A stretch of 64,000 nucleotides of DNA from Microcoleus sp. FACHB-68 (lineage in GTDB: Bacteria; Cyanobacteriota; Cyanobacteriia; Cyanobacteriales; Oscillatoriaceae): positions 1 through 64,000 of the forward strand of contig NZ_JACJOT010000008.1 in the NCBI RefSeq assembly GCF_014695715.1, in the 5' to 3' direction. Shown piece after piece: positions 5,628 through 25,282 of the stretch. Every line of letters begins with the position of its first letter. Position 1 is the first letter of the stretch. Position numbers and translations under genes: made by a program. A model generated the notes under the pieces. The model worked only from the letters and a program-made list of their open reading frames with translations, was not told the DNA's origin and searched no databases.

Positions 5628-6452
5628 ATGAAGAAAAAGTCTCTTCAATTTTTAAGTTTTAATTTTTTATTTTTAATCGCTTTAGCATTTTGCTTGAGTG
5701 TAATACCGGCAGCCTTCACACCACCGGCACCCGTAGCGGCAGCAGAAATGAAAGCCATCCAAAAACGGGGCCGGCTGATTGTTGCCGTCAAGGATAATTT
5801 GCCGCCTTTGGGCTTTAGAGACAGCGCCGGCAACTTACAAGGGCTGGAAATTGATATTGCTCGCCAGCTGGCGGCAGAGGTGTTAGGAAGCCCCGACGCC
5901 GTGGAATTGCAGCCGGTAGCCAATCAAGACCGGCTTTCTGTTGTGTTAAATGGCCAAGTCGATATTACCATTGCCGGCGTGACTGCAACCGAAACGCGAG
6001 GCCGGTTGGTTGATTTCAGCGTTCCCTACTACCTGGATGGCACCGGCTTTGTCACGAAAAATGCCTCGGTGCGCCGGTTAGAGGACGTGGGAAAACAGAC
6101 AATTGCCATGTTAGATAACTCTGACTCTATTGCCAATGTTCTGTATTTTTTCCCCAATGCCAATCTTGTTGGGGTAGATTCTTATGAAGCAGGACGAATG
6201 CTGATAGAACGCGGTGAAGCGGGTGTCTTTGCCGGCGATGGGAGCGTCCTTGCCGGCTGGGTGCAAGAGTATCGAGATTACCAGATTTTACCATTTCTCC
6301 TATCTGCTGAACCGCTATCGATCGTTATGCCAAAAGGATTGCAGTATTCCCCACTTCGTGTGCGAGTGCATAATGCAATTCGCCGGTGGACAGCAGAAGG
6401 TTGGTTGCGAGAACGGGCGATATACTGGGGCTTGCCGGTGCCTCAAGAATAG
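5628..6452 (+). CDS. Periplasmic amino-acid-type solute-binding protein (SBP_bac_3 family)
   Basis: A 274-residue protein with an N-terminal signal peptide (hydrophobic residues about 9-30, ending near PVAAAE). The mature part starts IQKRGRLIVAVKDNLPPLGF and contains LQGLEIDIARQLAAE and DITIAGVTATETRGRLVDFS, the standard pattern of family 3 extracellular binding proteins for polar amino acids. It should capture a small solute in the periplasm for an ABC importer, but no permease or ATPase gene is adjacent. The ligand cannot be read from the sequence. The start lies 17 bp past the rplT hairpin. Confidence 0.88.
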   Translation: MKKKSLQFLSFNFLFLIALAFCLSVIPAAFTPPAPVAAAEMKAIQKRGRLIVAVKDNLPPLGFRDSAGNLQGLEIDIARQLAAEVLGSPDAVELQPVANQDRLSVVLNGQVDITIAGVTATETRGRLVDFSVPYYLDGTGFVTKNASVRRLEDVGKQTIAMLDNSDSIANVLYFFPNANLVGVDSYEAGRMLIERGEAGVFAGDGSVLAGWVQEYRDYQILPFLLSAEPLSIVMPKGLQYSPLRVRVHNAIRRWTAEGWLRERAIYWGLPVPQE

Positions 6453-10037: not shown

Positions 10038-12130
10038 TTAGCCCAAAGCCGGTTGAGATAATTCCCTAACCTTATCAAAGCGAAAATTTTCCACTAAATC
10101 AGTCAAAGCGATAGCCAAAGAGGAATATTCTGGTGGAATCTGCTCAATTAGTTGCAACATCAACAAATCGCTACCTTGAGAGGCGGCATGATAGAGCTGT
10201 TGCACCCAATGAGCCGGCATCACTTGCAAAGCAGACGGCTCCAGCCGTGGCGAAATGGGGCACTCTTCAGGGGCAAAACCGGCTCTAAATTGGTCGTTGG
10301 CTGGAGTTTGATAGAGATAGCGCACCCCTAAATGTTGGCTGATTTTTAGCAGCATTTCCTGTTCTCGGAACGGTTTGCGAACGAAGTCATCACAACCGGC
10401 ATCCAAAATCACTTGGCGATCTTCTTCAAAGGCACTAGCAGTCAGAGCAATAATCACCGTCGATTGACCCAATGCAGTGGCTTTAATGCGTTTAGTAGCT
10501 TCATAACCATCCATCACCGGCATCTGTATATCCATCCAAATTAGGTGCGGCTGCCAGCTTTGCCACAGCGTTATACCTTGTTCACCGTTCTCAGCTTCTT
10601 TCACCTCAAAACCGAGTGAAGTTAACATTTTGAATAGAAACAGTCGATTTGTTGGTTTATCCTCAACGATCAATAGTCGGTAGGTTGGTTGATCGGGAGC
10701 TAATCCCACGATCTTCTCATTGGCCGGCCCGATAGAATTGAGTTCACAACTCAAAACCGGCACCACCTGAATATCAAACTCAAATACACTGCCTTCCCCA
10801 ACCGTACTGCTCAGGCTAAGGTTTCCCCCCATTAGTTGCACAAACTTTTGCGAAATTGGTAAACCCAAACCTGTGCCGGCACCTGACTTCAAGCCAGAAG
10901 TGGTTTGTCCAAAGGCTTCAAATAACTTATCAAATTCCATCGGGTCAATGCCCACGCCGGTATCACTGACCTCAAATCGCAATTGCATCCCCTTGCCGGC
11001 CGTGAATTCTCCCACCTCTACCCTCAGAGTTACACGGCCTTTTTGCGTGAACTTAATTGCATTTCCCAGCAGATTAATTAAAACTTGACGCAATTTACTT
11101 TCGTCTGTTTTAATAAATTGTGGCACGGATTGAGCGTGTTCAAAGCTTAGTTTTAATCCTTTATCTTTGGCTTTGATTTGCAGCAATTCAAACAGATTAT
11201 TTAGCAGGCGATAGAGGTCAAATTCATTTTCATGCAGTGTTGTTCGCCCTGCCTCAATTTTTGACATCTCCAAAACATCGTTAATCAATTCCAGCAGATG
11301 TTCCCCACTGCGTGAGATGATCCCCACTGACTGCCGGTGTTCTGTATTTAAGCTGGAGTCTCGGTTCATCAGTTGAGTAAAGCCGAGAATCGCGTTGAGT
11401 GGAGTTCTTAATTCGTGGCTCATATTAGCCAGGAATTCACTTTTAGCGCGGTTCGCGCTATCGGCGGCGACTTTAGCTTTCATCAGTTCCACCGATTGTT
11501 GTTGAGTTTGGGCCAGCAGGTGCGCTTGTTGGATGGCCACTCCCAATTGTGCGCCAATCTGAACGACCATTTTAATTTCCGCCGATTGCCAGTGGCGAGG
11601 GCCGCTATTTTGATAGGTGGCAAGTAATCCCCATAACTGGTTACTGCAGAAGATGGGCACGATGATGTAGGCTCGTGCTTGAAATCGTTCTAACAGTTCC
11701 AGGTAACATTGATCGAAACCGGCCTCATAGACATTTGGCACGCACGTGTAACTGCGTCCTTGTTTGTAGATTCCGCCGGCAGTTTCTTGTAGGTAGGTAT
11801 CGTGTACGGTGCTGTCCTCTGTCCCCAAAGTTGGGACGATGCAATCAACTTGATTAACCGCAACTTTGTTGAGTTCAAATTCCTGCTTTTGTTCTTCTAC
11901 GAGCGCTTTCCAGCCGGCTGCCAGTGATTCTGATACGAATTCCCCACTCCAGTCTGGGTTGAAGCGATAGACTGCTACGCGTTCGCAGTTTAATGCTTGG
12001 CGCAACTCTTGGGTGGTGGCGCTAAAGATTGTCTCAATTTCTAAGGTTTGCCGCATTCGCTGGATCACGAAGGCGATGGCTTTTTCTCGTTCTGCGCTTT
12101 CTTGCAAGGCTAACTCTGCCTGCTTGTGCT
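10038..12130 (-). repeat. Duplicated kinase module, copy A
   Basis: This segment (GAF, HisKA, HATPase, REC and tail) matches 15327-17425 at a constant offset of 5295 bp over most of its length, with stretches above 100 bp that are almost base-for-base identical (for example 10800-10920 against 16095-16215). The offset falls to 5289 at the 3' ends because of a two-codon difference in the tail region. Boundaries are approximate. Confidence 0.85.
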
Positions 12131-15086
12131 CTGTGATGTCAGTCACCAAGCCATCCCAGATGATACTGCCATCTGGTTGCGGATCAGGCCGAGAGTTGCC
12201 TCGTAGCCACTTGAGTTCGCCGGCAACGAAAACTCGCCAGATGCAATCCCAAGGTTTAAGCGTTTTTGCTGAAGTTGCAATTGATTGATTGACAATGGCA
12301 ATATCATCAGGATGCGTCAGCTTCCAAGACATATTAGCATCCTCTACCACCGCCTCTGGTTCTATCCCAAAGAGTTCTCGGCAACCGGCACTGGCATATA
12401 GAAAAGCCCTTGAACCATCGGGGTAGAGAATAAATTGATAAATCATCCCCGGTACGTTCTGTGCCAAATTCTGATACCGACTATTGCTCTGTTGCAGTGC
12501 CGCTTGTGCTTCTTGACGAGCCTGACTGATGGCGATAAATTCATTGACTAATCTCAGCCAATTAATCTCTTCTTGGCTCCAGAGCTTTGAGGAGTGAACC
12601 GCATCCAGCCCCATAAAGCCTACAACCTTGGCAGAGTAGAGCGTGGGAACGGCAAGCCGGGATTGAAAGGATATAAGTTCCTGATCGGCTACTTCGGTAT
12701 CTGTGAGTGAGAACTCGGCGGGGATTTGAACAGTTTTGCCCATCAATAGCTGGCTGTGACCCCACACATCTATCTCGACTGGCCATAGTTGGAACTTATC
12801 GATCAATGGCTCAATTCCCTTGTCGCACCACTCGTGGGTCATCATTAAGTAGTGCTGGTTGTCGCAGTAACGGAAAAGATAGGTGTGATCGCTCCCCAGG
12901 AACTCACCAACGGCTTGCAGGGTGAAAGTGATAGCAGTGTCTAGGTTTTCGTCAATGAAAATCCGGGAAATACGGCTGAGCAAACTGTCCATTTCAGCTC
13001 GTTTTTTCAGCAAGTCTTCTGCTAATTTACGCTCTAGTTCTGCTCCCGCTCTAGCGACAAAAATTTGTAAAATCATCTCTTTGCCCGGATTTTGAACTAT
13101 TGGCTCTACATCCAGCACAACTAAACTGCCGATTGTCTTGCCGGCAGAATCTAAAAGCGGAATTCCCCAGTAGCTTTGTGCCCCTAATTGAGCCAAATCT
13201 CGGTCGTTCGGAAAAAGTTCTTGCACTCCGGATGGGTAAAAATGGACGATTCCTTCCACAACATTTTTGCAAGGGGTGCCGGCTAATTCGTACTCAAAGT
13301 TTTCGCCAAAGTCTTCGCCCTTCCAGAATGCTAAGGTTCGTACTTTGGTTTTGCTATCATTTGCCACTTGGGTAACTAAGGCATAACGAACTTCCAAGAC
13401 TTGGGCGAGATAATGGACACAGGCACGAAAGAACTCATGGCCGGTTGCAGAAGCTGTCCCCTCAGCAATTAATTGCAGTGCGGCTTCTCTCTGTTTGCGT
13501 TCGGTAATATCGGTATGGGAACCGGCCACGCGGTAGCTTACGCCCGAACTATCCCACAATGCCACTCCACGGGTGAGAATCCAACGATAGCTTCCATCCT
13601 TATGTAATGCTCGGAATTCTACCTCGTAATTAGGAATTTTTTTGGCTAAATAGGCAATCAGCACCGCCAACACCCGCTCTGAGTCTTCTGGGTGTATAAC
13701 TTTTTTGAAGGAATCTATGTGGTTGGGAATTTCTGAGTCTTCATAGCCCAACATACTTTTCCACCGGGGGGACAGATAGGCATAGTCGGAGGGAATATTC
13801 CAGTCCCAAATCCCGTCGTTGACTCCTTCTACAGCCAAGGCGAACCGCTCTTCACTTTGGCGAAGTGCCGCTTCAGCTTGCTTGTGATTTGTGATATCGC
13901 TGAGGGTGCAAACAATTCGCTCTACACTCCCATCCTCTGCAATCTGCGGATCTGCATTTACTAGCAGCCATTTTTGAAGAAACGGGGATGAAGGATAAAC
14001 GATGAAGGTAGAACTTTTTTGATCGTTTATCCGTCCTGTTTCAACCTTTTTTTGGATTCCCATGACTGTGTTGTGAATGGGTTGGCGCAGGGCGATGGCC
14101 TGTTGCACAGGTAGCTCTAGAGTTCGGAAAGGTGTACCATCTTCATGCAGAAAAAGCCAGTCCTCACCAAACACCTGATGCGGTAAATCCTGTGGTGGCT
14201 TGAGATTGAGAAGATTAGTCGCAACTTGATTGCAGATGAGAATTTCGGCATTAACATTGAGCAGCAACACACCCACTGGCATTTCGCGGATCAGCATCCG
14301 AAAGCGTTTTTCACTTTCCAGTAAGGCTTTTTGTCGTATTAAATGAGCTGTCAAACGCCGGTCGAACAGAGAGGTGATCAGGGCTAAGCTTAAAATGAAC
14401 AGAGTGGCAATCCCAATGGCAATAGCCAGCCAGGACTGATTCATTGCTGGGGACTGCTGTACCGGCAAGAGGCTGTAAGGAATAAAGTGAGTCGCCATCA
14501 TGCCGGTGTAGTGCATCCCGCTGATGGCCAATCCCATGACGAAGGCACTGCCGCATTTCTGCCAGATCAGCCCTTCTATTGATTGATGCTGTAGCCGGAA
14601 AGCCAGCCAAAGTGCGGCAAAAGAGGCTGTGATGGCGATGACGACTGATAGGCTGACTAACCTCCAGTCATACTCTATTCTGGCCGACAGTTGCATCGCT
14701 GCCATGCCGGTGTAGTGCATCCAAGCAATGGCAATTCCCATGCAAACGCCACCGCCGGTTAACAGATGGATTGAAACAGAGCGACTCAGCAGCCACAAAG
14801 CAATGCTAGATGCAAGAACCGCGCACATCAGCGAGAATAGGGTGATCCACATATCGTAGCTAACGGATTGAGGCAATTGGAAAGCAAGCATGGCAATGAA
14901 GTGCATTGACCAAATGCCGGTTCCCATTGCCGCTGCTCCTCCCAGAAGCCAAAGTAGGCGTCCCCGTTTCACCGCAGATTGCACTCGCCCTGCTAAGTCT
15001 AGGGCGGTGTAGGAGGCAATGACCGAGATCGCAAAGGAAAGGGTCGCTAAGCCTAGGTTGTAAGTGCCGGCCATTTCGATATGCAT
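10038..15086 (-). CDS. Giant hybrid histidine kinase with MHYT membrane sensor
   Basis: 1682 residues. Residues 1-245 are a seven-helix MHYT domain with three repeats of the motif (WSMHFIAM, AWMHYTGM, SGMHYTGM); this domain is proposed to bind metal and sense a gas. There follow PAS (about 265-400), PAS (410-535), GAF (545-690), GAF (700-880), PAS (890-1010) and GAF (1030-1200) modules. A HisKA domain with H1224 in SHELRTP, a HATPase domain, and a receiver with D1519 in WMDIQMP complete the core. The last 90 residues are a tail without an obvious phosphotransfer histidine. The GAF modules lack a clear chromophore cysteine. From the last GAF onward it is nearly identical to the next gene upstream. 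Confidence 0.95.
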   Translation of the reverse strand: MHIEMAGTYNLGLATLSFAISVIASYTALDLAGRVQSAVKRGRLLWLLGGAAAMGTGIWSMHFIAMLAFQLPQSVSYDMWITLFSLMCAVLASSIALWLLSRSVSIHLLTGGGVCMGIAIAWMHYTGMAAMQLSARIEYDWRLVSLSVVIAITASFAALWLAFRLQHQSIEGLIWQKCGSAFVMGLAISGMHYTGMMATHFIPYSLLPVQQSPAMNQSWLAIAIGIATLFILSLALITSLFDRRLTAHLIRQKALLESEKRFRMLIREMPVGVLLLNVNAEILICNQVATNLLNLKPPQDLPHQVFGEDWLFLHEDGTPFRTLELPVQQAIALRQPIHNTVMGIQKKVETGRINDQKSSTFIVYPSSPFLQKWLLVNADPQIAEDGSVERIVCTLSDITNHKQAEAALRQSEERFALAVEGVNDGIWDWNIPSDYAYLSPRWKSMLGYEDSEIPNHIDSFKKVIHPEDSERVLAVLIAYLAKKIPNYEVEFRALHKDGSYRWILTRGVALWDSSGVSYRVAGSHTDITERKQREAALQLIAEGTASATGHEFFRACVHYLAQVLEVRYALVTQVANDSKTKVRTLAFWKGEDFGENFEYELAGTPCKNVVEGIVHFYPSGVQELFPNDRDLAQLGAQSYWGIPLLDSAGKTIGSLVVLDVEPIVQNPGKEMILQIFVARAGAELERKLAEDLLKKRAEMDSLLSRISRIFIDENLDTAITFTLQAVGEFLGSDHTYLFRYCDNQHYLMMTHEWCDKGIEPLIDKFQLWPVEIDVWGHSQLLMGKTVQIPAEFSLTDTEVADQELISFQSRLAVPTLYSAKVVGFMGLDAVHSSKLWSQEEINWLRLVNEFIAISQARQEAQAALQQSNSRYQNLAQNVPGMIYQFILYPDGSRAFLYASAGCRELFGIEPEAVVEDANMSWKLTHPDDIAIVNQSIATSAKTLKPWDCIWRVFVAGELKWLRGNSRPDPQPDGSIIWDGLVTDITEHKQAELALQESAEREKAIAFVIQRMRQTLEIETIFSATTQELRQALNCERVAVYRFNPDWSGEFVSESLAAGWKALVEEQKQEFELNKVAVNQVDCIVPTLGTEDSTVHDTYLQETAGGIYKQGRSYTCVPNVYEAGFDQCYLELLERFQARAYIIVPIFCSNQLWGLLATYQNSGPRHWQSAEIKMVVQIGAQLGVAIQQAHLLAQTQQQSVELMKAKVAADSANRAKSEFLANMSHELRTPLNAILGFTQLMNRDSSLNTEHRQSVGIISRSGEHLLELINDVLEMSKIEAGRTTLHENEFDLYRLLNNLFELLQIKAKDKGLKLSFEHAQSVPQFIKTDESKLRQVLINLLGNAIKFTQKGRVTLRVEVGEFTAGKGMQLRFEVSDTGVGIDPMEFDKLFEAFGQTTSGLKSGAGTGLGLPISQKFVQLMGGNLSLSSTVGEGSVFEFDIQVVPVLSCELNSIGPANEKIVGLAPDQPTYRLLIVEDKPTNRLFLFKMLTSLGFEVKEAENGEQGITLWQSWQPHLIWMDIQMPVMDGYEATKRIKATALGQSTVIIALTASAFEEDRQVILDAGCDDFVRKPFREQEMLLKISQHLGVRYLYQTPANDQFRAGFAPEECPISPRLEPSALQVMPAHWVQQLYHAASQGSDLLMLQLIEQIPPEYSSLAIALTDLVENFRFDKVRELSQPALG

Positions 15087-15326: not shown

Positions 15327-17425
15327 CTAACCTACAGGAGATTGAGATAATTCCATAATTTTATCAAAGCGAAAATTCTCCACTAAATCAGTTAAAGCGA
15401 TAGCCAGAGCGGAATGTTGTGGTGGAATCTGCTCAATGAGTTGCAACATCAACAAATCGCTGCCTTGAGAGCCGGCATGATAGAGCTGTTCCGCCCAATG
15501 AGCCGGCATCACTTGTAACGATGAAGCAGAAAGCTTAAACGCACAATCAAGCAATTCATCCTGGATGGCTTCGGCTTGTTCCCTCTGTAGGGCGTTGTTG
15601 GCTTCGTAAATATATTGCACCCCTAAATGTTCGCTGATTTTCATCAACAGTTCTTGTTCTCGGAACGGTTTACGAACGAAGTCATCGCAACCGGCATCCA
15701 AGATGCCTTGTCGCTCCTCTTCAAAGGCGCTAGCAGTTAGGGCGATAATCACAGTAGACTCACTGCCGGCACTGGCTTTGATGCGCTTGGTGGCTTCATA
15801 GCCATCCATCACCGGCATCTGCATATCCATCCAGATCAGGTGCGGTTGCCAGCTTTGCCACAGGGTTAAAGCTTGTTCACCGTTCTCAGCCTCTTTCACC
15901 TCAAATCCCAATGAAGTTAAGATTTTGAATAAGAAAAGTCGGTTCGTCGGCTGATCTTCAACAATCAACAGCCGATAGATTGGTTGGTTGGGGGCTAACC
16001 CCAGGATCTTCCCACTAGCTGGTTTAGTGGGGGCAATATTAGAACCCAAAACCGGCACCACCTGAATATTAAACTCAAATACACTGCCCTCCCCAACCGT
16101 ACTGCTCAGGCTAAGGTTTCCCCCCATTAGTTGCACAAACTTTTGCGAAATTGGTAAACCCAAACCTGTGCCGGCACCTGACTTCAAGCCAGAAGTGGTT
16201 TGTCCAAAGGCTTCAAATAACTTATCAAACTCCATTGGAGCAATACCTGATCCTGTATCACTCACTTCAAATCGCAATTGCATCCCCTTGCTAGCAGTGG
16301 ATTCTCCCACCTCTACGCTCAGAGTTACACGGCCTTTTTGCGTGAATTTAATCGCATTTCCCAGCAGATTAATTAAAACTTGACGCAATTTACTTTCGTC
16401 TGTTTTAATAAATTGTGGCACGGATTGAGTGCGTTCAAAGTTCAGTTTTAATCCTTTATCTTTGGCTTTGATTTGCAGCAATTCAAACAGATTATCTAAC
16501 AGGCGATAGAGGTCAAATTCATTTTCATGCAGTGTGGTTCGCCCTGCCTCAATTTTTGACATCTCCAAAACATCGTTAATCAATTCCAGCAGATGTTCCC
16601 CACTGCGCGAGATGATCCCCACTGACTGCCGGTGTTCTGTATTTAAGCTGGAGTCTCGGTTCATCAGTTGAGTAAAGCCGAGAATCGCGTTGAGTGGAGT
16701 CCTTAATTCGTGGCTCATATTAGCCAGAAATTCGCTTTTGGCACGGTTAGCGCTATCGGCGGCAACTTTAGCTTTCATCAGTTCCAGCGATTGTTGTTTG
16801 GTTTGGGCTAGTAGTTGCGCTTGTTGGATGGCCACTCCTAATTGTGCGCCGATCTGAACGACCATTTTAATTTCCGCCGATTGCCAGTGGCGAGGGCCGC
16901 TATTTTGGTAGGTGGCAAGTAATCCCCATAACTGGTTACTACAGAAGATGGGCACGATGATGTAGGCTCGTGCTTGGAATCGCTCTAACAGTTTTAGGTA
17001 ACATTGATTGAAACCGGCTTTGTAGATGTCTGGGATGCTTTTGTAACTGTTTCCTTGTTTGTAGATTCCGCCGGCAGTTTCTTGCAGGTAGGTGTCTTGA
17101 ATTAATTTAGGACTGCTTTGTAGAGTTTTGGCTGTGCAATTGCCGGTGTTGACTGCGATTTGTTTCAGCTCACTTTGTTGGGTTTGTTCCTGTACTAGCA
17201 CTTTCCAGCCGGCTGCCACTGATTCTGATACGAATTCCCCACTCCAGTCTGGGTTGAAGCGATAGACTGCTACGCGTTCGCAGTTTAATGCTTGGCGCAA
17301 TTCTTGGGTGGTGGCGCTAAAGATTGAATCGATCTCTAAGGTTTGCCGCATTCGCTGGATCACGAAGGCGATGGCTTTTTCGCGTTCTGCGCTCTCTTGC
17401 AAGGCTAACTCCGCCTGCTTGCGCT
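15327..17425 (-). repeat. Duplicated kinase module, copy B
   Basis: Partner of the 10038-12130 copy. The two differ mainly in the variable part of the GAF domain (around 17030-17200) and in the linker before the tail (around 15520-15610); the HisKA and HATPase coding regions are nearly invariant. The upstream sensor halves of the two genes are unrelated. Confidence 0.85.
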
Positions 17426-19358
17426 CTGTGATGTCGCGCACGATGGAGATCACTTCAGAGCTGCCGCAGGCTACAATCCGAGCCTCATAATCGTGAAGTT
17501 GGTCATCAATGGGTAATTCATACTCTAAGCGTTGAATCTCGCCTGTTTCAAGCACTTGATCGCAGGCGGAGCGTAGATACTGAGCAAGATTTGGTGGGAA
17601 GATTTCTTGTAACGTTTTCCCCAAAAATTGGTCGGCAGGGAGAAAAGTTTTAATGTCTTTGGCCGGCTTGAAATCAATAAAAGTGCCATCAGCGCGGCTG
17701 CGGAAAATCATATCTGGTATCGCATTCAACAGAGCGCGATTCGTTGCTTCGCTTTGACGCAGTACCTCTTCTGCTTGCTTGCGATCCCGTGATTCCATCG
17801 CTAAGGCAGCCATATAGGCCAAATAACTGGCAAAATTTTGCTCCTCAATCGGCCAGTGTCGCGCGGTTCCCCTATGTTCTAAACAAATGACTCCCACCGT
17901 TTGCCCTTTGAAGTGAATCGGGACATCCAACATGGAGGCAATTGACAAAGGAGTTAGATAGGCAGTGCTAAACTCGCGCGTTCTCGGATCGGTATGAGCA
18001 TTTCTTGCTGCAATGACTCGGTCTGTCTGTAAGGCTTGGAAATAATGGGGATAGTCAGTTATAGCAAGCGTCATCCCCTTGGTATGCCGGTTAGGCGTCA
18101 ATTCATATAAATCAGCACAATACAAAGAAGATTTATCTGGCTCATAAAGCCACACACTGCCTCGTTCAACGTTGAGAATTTGGGTTGCCAGTTGGGTAAT
18201 GGCTTCTAAAGCGGCACTAAGATTGCCGGCATACAAGCTCTTACTTTTTGCGAGTTCAAGCAATCCAGCTTGTTGCTTTCGCAGGCGAATTCCGCTTTCT
18301 CGCAAAGCAGATTCTGCGGCAATTCTTACGTTAATTTGTGTTTCCAAGACAGCGTTTGCTTGTACTAACTCAGCGGTGCGTTGGCGCAGTCCTTGAGTCG
18401 CCTCATTGACCCGAATTTCTAATTCCTCATAAGCATGACGCAGCGCCTGTTCTGCTCTCTCGCGCTGGAGTTCGGCTGCGGCTCTGGCAGCGAACACCTT
18501 CATAATCATCTTGGCGCTTTCTTCATTTGCTAAGGGCCGGTCATTGTTAATACATAGCGTCCCGATTACCTGCTGCTTTCCATCTAACAGGGGCGTTCCG
18601 AGGTAACATACTGCTCCCATTGCTTTCAACCCCTCAGCATTGGGGAATAGTTCCCCTACTTTGTCTCGGTAGTAGCATAAAGTGCCTTGCTCGACAACCG
18701 GCTCGCAGGGAGTGCCAGCTAGGTTATATTCAAAGTTCGTCTCTGCGTTGCTACCGGCCCAAAAAGCAAGGGTTTTTAAACTTTGAGGCTGTTCGCTCCC
18801 CAGTTCTGCAACAAAGGCGGAGCGAACGTTTAAAGCCGTTGCTAGATTCTGCACTAAGGCTGGGAAAAATTCTTCTCCTGTTACAGAAGCGGTTCCTGCC
18901 AGAATACTTTGTAAGGTTTGCTCGGTCTGCTGGCGTTCTACAATTTCTTGCTGTAGTTGCCGATTGATTGCTTCCAGTCTTTCTGGAGTTTGAAGCCCTA
19001 AAAATTGAGGCAGCAGCTTTACCAGTTGTAAGGCTGTGCAACAGGAAACTAAGGCGGTTAAAGCTTGCTCGATTCCTGTTAACCAGTAAGCTGGATGCCA
19101 CAGCGTCCAAATGTCTAGCAAGTGTCCTGTTCCACACAGAATAATAAACGCTCCGAATAAGGCAAATCTCCCTAGAAAGGGCACATCCTTTCGCTTATAC
19201 ACGGAATAGATGAGCATTGCCGGTATTGAAAAATAGGCGAGGGCAATTATTAAGTCACTGACAATATGTAGCCCTACCAGCGGGGTTTTCCACAGGTAGC
19301 AGTGACCATGAGGCATGAATTGGCTCGGTGAAACGAAGTTTTTAAATATTTCCCACAT
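15327..19358 (-). CDS. Hybrid histidine kinase with ethylene-receptor-like N-terminus
   Basis: 1343 residues. Residues 20-100 form three membrane helices closely like the copper-dependent ethylene-binding domain of plant ETR1 and cyanobacterial relatives. D35, Y42, C75 and H79 all align with ETR1 D25, Y32, C65 and H69 at a constant offset of 10; C65 and H69 are the copper ligands. GAF (about 155-305), coiled coil, GAF (370-530), PAS (540-660) and GAF (690-860) modules follow. Then come HisKA with H883, HATPase, and a receiver with D1178, ending in the same tail as the neighbouring kinase. It should sense ethylene or another small ligand and pass phosphate to its receiver and perhaps to the neighbouring receiver proteins. 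It is the first gene of the four-gene signalling run. Confidence 0.95.
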   Translation of the reverse strand: MWEIFKNFVSPSQFMPHGHCYLWKTPLVGLHIVSDLIIALAYFSIPAMLIYSVYKRKDVPFLGRFALFGAFIILCGTGHLLDIWTLWHPAYWLTGIEQALTALVSCCTALQLVKLLPQFLGLQTPERLEAINRQLQQEIVERQQTEQTLQSILAGTASVTGEEFFPALVQNLATALNVRSAFVAELGSEQPQSLKTLAFWAGSNAETNFEYNLAGTPCEPVVEQGTLCYYRDKVGELFPNAEGLKAMGAVCYLGTPLLDGKQQVIGTLCINNDRPLANEESAKMIMKVFAARAAAELQRERAEQALRHAYEELEIRVNEATQGLRQRTAELVQANAVLETQINVRIAAESALRESGIRLRKQQAGLLELAKSKSLYAGNLSAALEAITQLATQILNVERGSVWLYEPDKSSLYCADLYELTPNRHTKGMTLAITDYPHYFQALQTDRVIAARNAHTDPRTREFSTAYLTPLSIASMLDVPIHFKGQTVGVICLEHRGTARHWPIEEQNFASYLAYMAALAMESRDRKQAEEVLRQSEATNRALLNAIPDMIFRSRADGTFIDFKPAKDIKTFLPADQFLGKTLQEIFPPNLAQYLRSACDQVLETGEIQRLEYELPIDDQLHDYEARIVACGSSEVISIVRDITERKQAELALQESAEREKAIAFVIQRMRQTLEIDSIFSATTQELRQALNCERVAVYRFNPDWSGEFVSESVAAGWKVLVQEQTQQSELKQIAVNTGNCTAKTLQSSPKLIQDTYLQETAGGIYKQGNSYKSIPDIYKAGFNQCYLKLLERFQARAYIIVPIFCSNQLWGLLATYQNSGPRHWQSAEIKMVVQIGAQLGVAIQQAQLLAQTKQQSLELMKAKVAADSANRAKSEFLANMSHELRTPLNAILGFTQLMNRDSSLNTEHRQSVGIISRSGEHLLELINDVLEMSKIEAGRTTLHENEFDLYRLLDNLFELLQIKAKDKGLKLNFERTQSVPQFIKTDESKLRQVLINLLGNAIKFTQKGRVTLSVEVGESTASKGMQLRFEVSDTGSGIAPMEFDKLFEAFGQTTSGLKSGAGTGLGLPISQKFVQLMGGNLSLSSTVGEGSVFEFNIQVVPVLGSNIAPTKPASGKILGLAPNQPIYRLLIVEDQPTNRLFLFKILTSLGFEVKEAENGEQALTLWQSWQPHLIWMDMQMPVMDGYEATKRIKASAGSESTVIIALTASAFEEERQGILDAGCDDFVRKPFREQELLMKISEHLGVQYIYEANNALQREQAEAIQDELLDCAFKLSASSLQVMPAHWAEQLYHAGSQGSDLLMLQLIEQIPPQHSALAIALTDLVENFRFDKIMELSQSPVG

Positions 19359-20316
19359 TGGCCAACGCTCTAAAATCTCTCTAAGGTTAATTGTGCTTTA
19401 TTTGAAATTTTGAAGCAGCCAAAATAAATTATTTTTTGATATAAATGCATTCATTAAAACTAATCAAAAGCAACGCGCTCAATGAACGCCCACCTTTTTT
19501 GCAAATCTTCATATATTTATGATATTTTCTTTTTACCGGCTTGTCCACTCTGAGCAACTACAGCAGAACTCGGTCAAGGGAAAGAGGTAGCTTAACTGCT
19601 TAACACAAAAATATCTTTTTTTTAAATAGATTATTTTTCATAATTCATTATTTATCTACTCTACAAAAATAGTATCTTGTGTTATATAGAGTCGATAATT
19701 TCATCATTAATGGTTACTAGGAGTCTCTTATTTAGAAATCTCTACATATTTTATAATTTATGTCAATTAGAAAATGTACTGTTTTTTTTAGACAGTTTAT
19801 ATTAGCCTGGACGGTTAAACGTTCGCTGTGGCGGGTTGGGAAAACAGCTTCAACATCTGTTGGCTAGAGGGCACCTTGCGTATAACTTTGTTAGCACAGA
19901 GTGTGATCATCCGGCAGATAGATTTTAGCCCTGATGGTTAGATGAAATAAAAGGGGAAATCGGGTGAAGGGGAGATGGGGTGAGGAATGCGCGGAGTTTA
20001 GCCGGCTCGTTTACAAGCCAAATGAGACGCGCCTTCGCTTAGTGGGTTGCCGGCTAGTGCAAATTAGATGTACGTTTCTGTAGTGGCGCGCCGGCAAAGT
20101 AAGGAGTCGTTCGCAGAACTGCCAAGCCAGATACAATAGTTAACAGATATTGAACTGTAGGCCAGATGACGCCTTCCCCAAAACTGGAGACTTCAAAATC
20201 AGTGAGCCAAAAATCGGCACTGCTATAGTGCGCTTGAGGTTGAAACGGCTGACTGCGCTTAAGAAAAATTTTCTCGATCACTTTGAAATCTTACTAAATT
20301 GGAGTGGAGAAAGGGA
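19359..20316. other. Divergent intergenic region, about 960 bp
   Basis: This spacer lies between the kinase cluster (leftward) and the tatC-like gene (rightward). The kinase-proximal half (19370-19800) is very AT-rich with many T and A runs; the other half has normal composition. I see no gene, tRNA or clear repeat. It must hold promoters for both directions, but I could not place them. Short open frames here look accidental. Confidence 0.6.
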
Positions 20317-22197
20317 ATGGCTGATGAGACAGCGCCACAGGAAAAGCGCGTCATTCAAGTAGCGCACGCAATACCGGGACGTGTGCGCCTGCGAATTACG
20401 GACAAAACCTTTGAACCGGCACTCGATGCCTTAGCGGATGAGTTACGGTTGCAAGATGGCATTTATGAAGTTTGTAAAAATCACGAAACCGGCAGTGTAC
20501 TGATTTCCTTTAATTCAACGATGCTGCCGTTGCCGGTGTTGTTAGAAGAACTTGAAGAGTATGGGGTTGCCGGTTTAAACTCTCAAATATCGGCAGCAAA
20601 TCAAATTGATCCGCTGGCTGCCTGGAAAAAACAAAGCCAGTCATTACTGCCGGTGATTGCCGGCTTACTACTAACCAGAAGTTTAGGATTGTTCGGCTGG
20701 CGGGCGATCTTTGCCTATATAATTACTGCCGGCACAACTCGCGAAATTATAAATATATTAGATTCGGAAAAGCCGATTATGCAATCTTTTAACAGTCCAG
20801 AAAGCAATATTAAAAATGGCAGCAAGGAAGTGAACGAAGCACAGCATTCAGTTGAAAATTCCACCTCTAGAATTGAATATCGCCTTCTCCATGCAATTCG
20901 CGGACGGGTGCGGTTTGGGGTGCCTCGCCTCACCACCGATCCAGAATATGCCGCACACTTAGAGCAGTTGAGCGCAGCAGCAGCCGGTGTTACAGATGTT
21001 CGGGTGAACCCTACAGCCGCATCTATTGTTATTAGTTATACTGCCGGTGCGATTTCTGATGCTCAGATGCGTTCTCATCTTGCCGAGTTAATTCAAGCTG
21101 CCGGCAATTCTCAAATTTTGACTGAACCTGTGCCAACTTCAGAAATTGAATCTGAAGAACTTACTGATTTACCGCCTAAATTTCCAACCCTTAATTCAGA
21201 GGTTGAGCCTCAGATATATCCGCCAAATGATCAAGCCTTGCTCTCAAAAGTTGAGTCTGAAATATCTCAGGTAAGCTTGGATGAGGTCGGAGAATCTCAA
21301 CGACTTGATCGATTAACACCCAGTGAGCTATTACCGGCAAGCCTTGAGGTGCCGGTTGAGAGTCAATCGTTTGATAATCAGCTTGAAATCGAAACTCTAG
21401 AAAAACGTTCAACTGATCTAGCTTTGCTGCCGGCACCAACTGATAGTAGTATCATGCCGGCATCCGTCGATCAAGATGACGAGCTTGATGAATTCCCCGA
21501 TGATGTTGAGATGTCTTTGTTCGATCATTTGGAAGAATTGCGACAGCGGATTTTTTATTCGCTGATCGCTGTATTCCTAGGTATTGTTGGCTGTTTTGTC
21601 TTCGTCAAGCCAATTGTACAGATATTAGAAGTGCCGGCTCAAAGCGTCAAATTTATTCAAATTGCTCCCGGAGAATATTTCTTTGTTTCCATGAAAACTG
21701 CCGGTTACAGCGGTTTGCTAGTAGCCACACCCTTTATTCTCTACCAAATTATTCAATTTGTATTACCTGGACTGACAAAGCGCGAACGCCGGTTCTTGGG
21801 TCCCATTGTGCTAGGTTCTAGCTTTCTATTTGTAGGCGGTTTAGCGTTTGCTTATTTTGCGTTAATCCCGGCAGCCTTGCAATTCTTAATCAGCTACGGT
21901 GCCGATGTCGTTGAGCAATTGCTGTCAATTGATCGCTATTTTGAATTTATTTTGCTGCTGTTGTTTAGCACCGGCATCGCCTTTCAAATTCCCGTCATCC
22001 AAATGCTACTCGGTTTGCTGGGTATTGTTTCCTCAAAGCAAATGCTGTCTGGCTGGCGTTACGTGTTCCTGGGTGCTGCCATTTTAGGCGCGGTTCTCAC
22101 GCCTTCCACCGATCCTTTAACCCAATGCCTGCTGGGTGGTGCTGTCGTTACGCTCTACTTTGGCGGCACGGGTTTAGTGATGCTTTTGGGGCGCTGA
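20317..22197 (+). CDS. tatC: TatC protein translocase subunit with two N-terminal HMA-like domains
   Basis: 626 residues in one uninterrupted frame. Residues 399-626 are a complete TatC, the substrate-binding subunit of the twin-arginine translocase: [13 protein letters not shown], the [15 protein letters not shown] loop followed by the KRERRF segment, and about six membrane helices. Before it are two ferredoxin-like HMA-type domains (11-82 and 187-262), each with the AI-x-GRVR motif but no CxxC metal site. A hydrophobic segment lies between them (110-135), and an acidic, proline-rich linker follows (265-395). Cyanobacterial TatC is usually about 250 residues, so the extension is unusual. Start: ATG 20317 with GGAGAAAGGG just upstream, preferred to a TTG at 20299. 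An internal ATG at 21511 could make a normal-sized TatC. The petC gene downstream encodes a likely Tat client. Confidence 0.9.
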
Positions 22198-24742: not shown

Positions 24743-25282
24743 ATGGCTCAAGCTTCTGGATCTGCAGACGTGCCCAGCATGGGGCGTCGTCAATTTATGA
24801 ATTTTCTAACCTTTGGTGCAGTCACCGGCACAGCGCTGGGTGCCCTGTATCCAGTGATCAAGTATTTTATCCCGCCCTCAACCGGCGCTGCCGGTGGTGG
24901 TGTGACTGCCAAAGATGCGCTGGGTAACGATATCAGCGTCACTAAATTTTTGGCCAGCCATAATGCCGGTGAGCGTGCCTTAGCGCAAGGTCTCAAAGGC
25001 GACCCCACCTACGTTGTGGTAGACACGAACCAAGCGATCTCCAATTACGGTATCAACGCCGTATGTACCCACCTGGGTTGCGTTGTCCCTTGGAACGCCA
25101 GCGAGAACAAATTTATTTGTCCTTGCCACGGTTCTCAGTATGACAACACCGGCAAAGTCGTTCGCGGGCCGGCACCCTTGTCTTTGGCACTCGCTCACGC
25201 CACAGTAGCCGATGATAAAATCACCTTCACGCCCTGGACGGAAACAGACTTCCGCACCGGCGACGATCCGTGGTGGGCCTAA
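24743..25282 (+). CDS. petC: Cytochrome b6f complex Rieske iron-sulfur protein
   Basis: 179 residues, the normal length. It carries the 2Fe-2S cluster that takes electrons from plastoquinol in the b6f complex. The cluster motifs are intact: CTHLGC at 108-113 and CPCHG at 126-130. The N-terminus has a twin-arginine signal anchor ([10 protein letters not shown]15-R16, then a hydrophobic helix to about 40), so export depends on the Tat pathway, whose TatC subunit is encoded 2.5 kb upstream. petA follows 131 bp later on the same strand, the standard cyanobacterial petCA operon. Confidence 0.97.

Follow-up and report, generated by a model that had tools for sequence, protein, structure and literature searches.

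How does a highly conserved TatC, very probably the only copy in its genome, come to carry about 366 extra residues on its cytoplasmic end, and do these residues have a role there? This question is raised by a tatC gene in the 64,000-nucleotide stretch of DNA analysed here (the window), which an earlier note, made from the letters alone, had read as a fusion to two HMA-like domains. The locus offers a natural test of what the end of TatC tolerates and of whether the Tat system can gain substrate-handling domains. Since the insertion step is partly retraceable in the DNA, it may also show how a core export machine gains a new part. Below, G000 is the genome of the window, G003 and G004 are its congeners, and G001 belongs to a related genus of the same family.

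Architecture, start site and occurrence of the fused gene

The composition described in the earlier note, i.e., one uninterrupted 626-codon frame carrying two HMA-type domains without CxxC, a hydrophobic segment, an acidic linker and a complete TatC, was borne out (Table 1). The frame runs from ATG to TGA and encodes a protein with an estimated mass of ~69 kDa. Pfam PF00902 (TatC) matches residues 403–606 (E 1.7e-66, 224.4 bits versus a cut-off of 25.1), and NCBIfam TIGR00945 is covered over its full profile (1–215 of 215) at 261.8 bits versus a cut-off of 132.7, which assigns the protein as a TatC equivalog. Submitted singly, both N-terminal domains exceed the 30-bit cut-off of PF19991 (HMA_2), as does the fused domain of G001 (47.9 bits); in the 154-position profile domain 1 spans 6–125 and domain 2 only 11–80. 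A recent duplication of one domain from the other was rejected, as at the DNA level the two share a single 18-nt match at 78%. No CxxC occurs in residues 1–398, where C53 is the sole cysteine, and residues 1–400 contain six histidines. The hydrophobic stretch at ~107–148 has a best 19-residue Kyte-Doolittle (KD) mean of 1.59, borderline for a membrane helix, and is possibly a short membrane-associated hairpin. Residues 266–398 hold 33 D/E, 6 K/R and 15 P. Promoter and terminator predictions were somewhat above shuffled sequence (12 versus 6.7 +/- 2.8 and 6 versus 3.7 +/- 1.8, respectively).

Table 1 Features of the fused tatC gene and related loci. Positions are those of the window unless a locus is named.
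Feature	Position	Strand	Basis and remarks
Candidate relic of the ancestral tatC start, 20-codon frame MTPSPKLETSKSVSQKSALL plus stop, out of frame with the fusion	20166..20228	+	PSSM
Leader and RBS of the fused gene, resembling the leader of the C6 two-HMA_2 gene	20293..20316	+	18/24 bases identical; anti-SD -6.7 kcal/mol
Fused gene, 626 aa: HMA_2 – hydrophobic segment – HMA_2 – acidic linker – TatC	20317..22197	+	ORF reading, Pfam, NCBIfam
HMA_2 domain 1, residues 11–92	20347..20592	+	PF19991 34.5 bits; dN/dS 0.22–0.31 among congeners
Hydrophobic segment, residues 93–150	20593..20766	+	KD 1.2–1.6; within HMA_2 match (profile 2–126); mostly gone, in frame, from G003
HMA_2 domain 2, residues 184–265, motif HAIRGRVRF	20866..21111	+	PF19991 37.3 bits; predicted fold
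Acidic, Pro-rich linker, residues 266–366	21112..21414	+	Composition; dN/dS
Probable rest of the ancestral TatC acidic N-tail, residues 367–398, DLALLPAP...DEFPDDVE	21415..21510	+	Local alignment with unfused tails
Complete TatC core, residues 399–626, only TatC found in the genome	21511..22194	+	Pfam, NCBIfam; dN/dS 0.01–0.02
petC, Rieske protein with twin-arginine N-terminus	24743..25282	+	Read by eye
HMA_2/P1B-ATPase/DUF5132 cluster	L044 6183–14777 (G000:C6)		Pfam, reading
Deletion in G004 covering most of the HMA_2/ATPase cluster	L112 7448–8565 (G004:C11)		Contig comparison

A frameshift or missed stop, which the earlier note had named as one way in which its reading would fall, was rejected as unlikely because G003 and G004 keep the same open frame and differ from it only by in-frame lengths. 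A TatC search of the whole genome returned one match, the fused gene, and two TatA/B-like genes sit on other contigs. With a rated assembly completeness of 99.92%, it is very probable that the organism has no other TatC. The fused protein very probably works as an ordinary TatC.

Predicted pairing with the anti-Shine-Dalgarno (anti-SD) sequence is -6.7 kcal/mol before the fused start, -2.4 before the candidate relic ATG and -1.5 before an internal ATG at 21511; the signal at the fused start is only moderate because 500 random positions gave -2.8 +/- 2.7 with a 5th percentile of -7.7. The earlier note had suggested that the internal ATG could give a short TatC as a second product; in a further-reaching reading this short product would be the working form. 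The ATG exists and encodes the Met of EMSLF[DE]HL, a motif that follows the acidic tail, and a protein begun there would contain the whole TatC match. The two forms, however, found no support: no SD-like sequence precedes the codon (though the relic ATG and some other genes fare little better), and in the relatives read the unfused TatC frames already open roughly 25–80 residues before this Met. From these signals a short TatC is not favoured, and as the working form it seems very improbable.

The earlier note had also proposed the nearby Rieske protein as a plausible client. The gene does lie 2.5 kb downstream and encodes a twin-arginine signal (GRRQFMNFL near the N-terminus), so that the protein is a possible Tat client by its sequence. 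As evidence for a special client of the fused form, the neighbourhood adds nothing: petC and petA also stand 3' of tatC in the unfused G002, G005 and G006, where petC likewise encodes GRRQF, and the arrangement is thus not tied to the fusion. Upstream of tatC these three genomes have a solute-binding protein gene, whose counterpart in the window (5628–6452) is split from tatC by minus-strand kinase genes. Two neighbouring minus-strand genes for hybrid histidine kinases, at 10038–15086 and 15327–19358, look almost the same by eye in their kinase and receiver parts, and the pair occupies the place where the relatives' solute-binding protein gene directly precedes tatC.

The fusion recurs, as the earlier note had proposed to check. 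Among the eight genomes of the family sample it is found in all three members of the genus (frames of 636, 588 and 641 aa from stop to stop), and a version with one HMA_2 domain occurs in G001 (490-aa frame). Ordinary TatC frames of 284–288 aa are found in G002, G005 and G006, and G007 has TatC as a contig-end fragment. Of the 388 genomes sampled from the order, 373 have a TatC match, and the analysis covered a row for each of these; in some (including G007, G074, G157, G223, G237 and G363) the row is a fragment at a contig end or a weak match, which does not allow the N-terminus to be judged. Over the order, a profile of the four fused proteins scored them at 1236, 1228, 1218 and 820 bits, and the next row, an unfused protein, at 500. 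No further HMA_2–TatC fusion appeared in the rest of the 388 genomes, apart from six frames that were outside the reading (G238, G244, G259, G272, G299 and G316; 351–387 aa, all of family f2), among which a one-domain fusion is unlikely. In a class-wide draw of 291 genomes (256 outside the order), the best match besides the window among those listed was an unfused 282-aa frame at 512 bits. Scanning named genomes with the domain-2 profile gave a single locus, that of G004, in a MAG that bears the name Microcoleus vaginatus WJT46-NPBG5, and missed G003 and G001. We found no description of an HMA–TatC fusion in the open-access literature searched (most subscription journals lay outside the search), nor in passages of PMC9374683, PMC13186574 and PMC5102672. 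Among the matches listed for HMA_2 and DUF5132, most concerned plant HMA2 or other unrelated uses of the name.

Origin of the HMA_2 arm and its junction with TatC

The likely source of the arm, judged from gene architecture and leader similarity, is a two-HMA_2 gene of a metal-ATPase cluster on contig C6 of the same genome. This cluster encodes a two-HMA_2 protein of 360 aa, a heavy-metal P-type ATPase of 762 aa carrying HMA_2 at its N-terminus, two DUF5132 proteins, an HMA_2 protein of 196 aa, a protein of 189 aa that matches no family, a second two-HMA_2 protein (about 609 aa from its ATG; at about 602.5–604.4 kb) and a third DUF5132 protein. The fusion and the ~609-aa paralog have comparable starts and the same kind of hydrophobic segment, and over the leader plus the first 18 coding bases 34 of 42 positions are identical. 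In a tree, the first domain of the fusion falls loosely together with its counterparts in the paralog and in G002 (83/76, open fork). An Arg for Pro in HAI[PR]GR, considered as a mark of the TatC fusion, was dropped, as the cluster paralogs of G005 and G006 also have HAIRGR.

HMA_2 and DUF5132 matches are co-located in other family members as well, with the ATPase identified only in G000. By eye, this ATPase has TGIR at the position of the CPx motif that P1B pumps usually carry.

Upstream of the fused gene, the DNA appears to retain the old start of tatC. A short frame opening 151 bases 5' of the fused start resembles the beginnings of unfused relatives (MTLPPDLETA, MMPPSELETA, MTVPSDLETS, MTAPSELETA), and its ATG scored 15.3 bits on a PSSM of unfused TatC N-tails, ranking first of the 1637 ATGs in the window, with the next at 2.8. 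The PSSM was built from 16 selected tails with mostly MT starts, excluding types such as MASTELETPP; in 40 mononucleotide shuffles of the window the highest score was 10.9 and the mean of the maxima 6.7. The first 12 residues of the frame are identical in G003 and G004, where the later part and the stop differ. Because all of the upstream DNA is conserved between these three species, this conservation alone shows no function.

On the other side of the insert, the residues just before the TatC core resemble unfused tails. Residues 353–394 aligned with the tail of G425 better than any of 500 shuffles, and for residues 367–394 as good a score was reached by 8 and 5 of 500 shuffles with the tails of G006 and G005, and by 22, 23 and 57 of 500 in weaker alignments with G438, G061 and G002. 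Against the G001 linker, residues 367–394 were not above chance (168 of 500). The simplest account of the junction would be an insertion inside tatC's own tail. The arm's likeness to the head of the C6 gene, leader included, together with the start relic upstream, points to the head of a duplicated two-HMA_2 gene, with its own leader and RBS, having been copied into the variable acidic N-terminal tail of tatC, which would have left the old start codon upstream as a relic frame.

Whether this happened once or twice is less clearly marked. The tree of the TatC core (19 rows) groups all four fusions together, with support of 96/93 and in 97% of bootstrap trees. Against one origin, the TatC core of the window is by identity closer to the unfused G438 and G425 (85.5% and 84.6%) than to the fused G001 (81.6%), and the G001 linker shows no likeness to the window's tail above chance. 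A separate fusion is also hinted at by one domain tree, where the fused domain of G001 pairs with the paralog of the same genome (91/87, long branches), although the HMA trees, with 78 columns, have little resolution; the domain-2 tree does not place G001 firmly, and one clade of four was not rejected (p-AU 0.315). A relic start is missing from G001, where 26 bases separate the fused ATG from the preceding gene, an arrangement in which one deletion could have taken both the relic and domain 1. We favour, without giving it much weight, a single fusion event, most likely in the common ancestor of the window's genus and that of G001.

Constraint on the arm and its possible roles

The full-length AF2 model, made from a single sequence, was of no use (pLDDT 44). 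From a four-row alignment, AF2 gave domain 2 a pLDDT of 85 and a beta-beta-alpha-beta-beta-alpha order (strands 6–11, 14–18, 42–48 and 53–58; helices 26–37 and 65–80), i.e., a predicted HMA-like fold without CxxC. Foldseek returned no match for this model at E <= 0.001. RNA polymerase subunit L came first among the top rows, which also contained HMA proteins, with MerP (1osd) in the third row (E 0.013, rmsd 1.6, TMt 0.76). The fold, a domain-2 profile that reaches the HMA pair of CopA (1p6t, E 8.2e-6) and the presence of the N-terminal extension of CzcP (4u9r) among the weak structural matches (E 0.091) would fit an arm that binds a metal or ligand and gates export. Such sensing is nevertheless improbable, as the arm has no CxxC and offers one Cys and six His, and the alignment with CopA starts at its residue 21, past the position of its CxxC loop.

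Apparent descent from the P1B-ATPase/DUF5132 cluster raises another idea, namely that the arm binds the HMA_2 domains of the cluster and so brings the Tat translocase to a metal-efflux platform. The small DUF5132 proteins next to a P1B-ATPase recall, by our own analogy, the PacL platforms of mycobacteria (PMC9374683); DUF5132 and DUF1490 are, however, different families. Moreover, G004 has lost most of the cluster: its only two HMA_2 matches are those of tatC, it has a single DUF5132 gene, and its contig C11 matches one cluster flank and, after a further 18 bases, the paralog's 3' end together with the last DUF5132 gene. Both HMA_2 domains nonetheless persist on its TatC, so that the arm is not confined to cluster-bearing genomes, which speaks against tethering and makes it, in our estimate, quite improbable.

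Substitution patterns separate the arm from the core. Among congeners dN/dS is 0.01–0.02 for TatC, 0.22–0.31 for domain 1, 0.36–0.68 for domain 2 and 0.42–0.54 for the linker (266–398); between the G000 and G003 paralogs it is 0.24, 0.27 and 0.44 for domain 1, domain 2 and linker. Tested against neutrality, nonsynonymous changes were fewer in domain 1 (P 0.033 and 0.012), in the linker (P 0.011 and 0.044) and in TatC (below 1e-16), with P 0.30 and 0.056 for domain 2; domain 1 and the linker did not differ significantly in constraint (P 0.12 and 0.54). By these counts the arm is under weak purifying selection. It has also lost parts: G003 lacks residues 97–149 through an in-frame deletion that removed most of the hydrophobic segment, whose paralog counterpart shows 0 nonsynonymous and 2 synonymous changes between G000 and G003. 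G001 lacks domain 1, leaving domain 2 as the HMA_2 part common to all four fusions. HAI[PR]GR[VI]R is retained in all seven fused domains, and none of the four fusions has a frameshift or stop.

TatC proteins enlarged in other ways are found across the order, where 29 of the 373 TatC-positive genomes have a TatC frame >340 aa. The 23 frames read divide into four with HMA_2, 13 with N-terminal acidic tails or repeats, five with a C-terminal extension and one with a coil-like N-terminus. All 13 long acidic tails belong to family f2 and 11 of them are built as repeats, with a unit of about 72 nt in G334 and about 24 aa in L067; in genus g5 of this family (L061–L071) the length of the array varies between species. 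The five C-terminal extensions, in family f32, are Uma2-like (PF05685), by Pfam in G126 and G094 and by eye in G139, G164 and G177; as these additions are C-terminal, the long f32 frames were rejected as instances of the same fusion. In these proteins (L017 and L074; also L018, L023 and L075), which come from two genera, a long acidic linker precedes the domain. The coil-like extension is that of G199 (L076, 387-aa frame), and G299, of the same genus, has a TatC frame of equal length. Acidic repeats, HMA_2 and Uma2-like additions thus mark the ends of TatC as sites that repeatedly take additions in this order.

Such a background would suit an arm that does nothing and is harmless on TatC's variable tail. 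The piecemeal losses in G003 and G001 and the weaker constraint on domain 2 than on that of the stand-alone paralog point the same way. This passive reading is possible, if rather less than an even prospect, since domain 1 is constrained like its paralog, and the shared motif and the open frames have persisted in every fusion.

We lean, by a modest measure, towards a sole and ordinary TatC with a cytoplasmic accessory arm, derived from the inserted head of an HMA_2 gene, that may act as a mild adaptor. The N-terminus of TatC faces the cytoplasm, and the arm is thus expected there; it would hang near the signal-peptide site on its long acidic linker. Least certain is what follows, that the arm, chiefly domain 2, may serve as a mild protein–protein adaptor or spacer without a classical CxxC metal site and may be dispensable for the function of the TatC core. 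This mild role is given slightly more weight because of the paralog-like constraint on domain 1 and the HMA_2 motif kept in seven fused domains, although the weak constraint on the arm, the segment loss in G003 and the absence of domain 1 in G001 might be those of a passenger. A stronger version, in which the CxxC-free HMA_2 domains choose, retain or proof-read Tat clients that are folded and perhaps loaded with a cofactor, beside the signal-peptide site, is unlikely; if true, this built-in adaptor would make the protein a Tat receptor that includes its own accessory domain.

Comparison with known systems

In its core, the window's protein resembles other cyanobacterial TatC (TIGR00945/PF00902), with a complete domain, the HLEELRQR motif and a score above the equivalog cut-off, and as in the unfused G002 and G006 its gene is followed by a PAS/kinase gene and petC-petA. 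It differs by its extra N-terminal residues, where most of the unfused relatives read have an acidic tail of about 25–60 aa. The C6 two-HMA_2 gene shares the order HMA_2 – hydrophobic segment – HMA_2 – acidic linker, the MAxxTA start and a similar leader; unlike the fusion, it has in place of TatC an acidic, repetitive C-terminus of its own and adjoins P1B-ATPase and DUF5132 genes. The classical HMA proteins MerP, CopZ, CopA and PacS have the type of alpha/beta fold predicted for domain 2, but the latter is without CxxC, and its model places two strands ahead of the first helix, while no strand follows the final one. TatC with a C-terminal Uma2-like domain is likewise a lineage-restricted addition in the same order, placed at the opposite end and with an unrelated domain.
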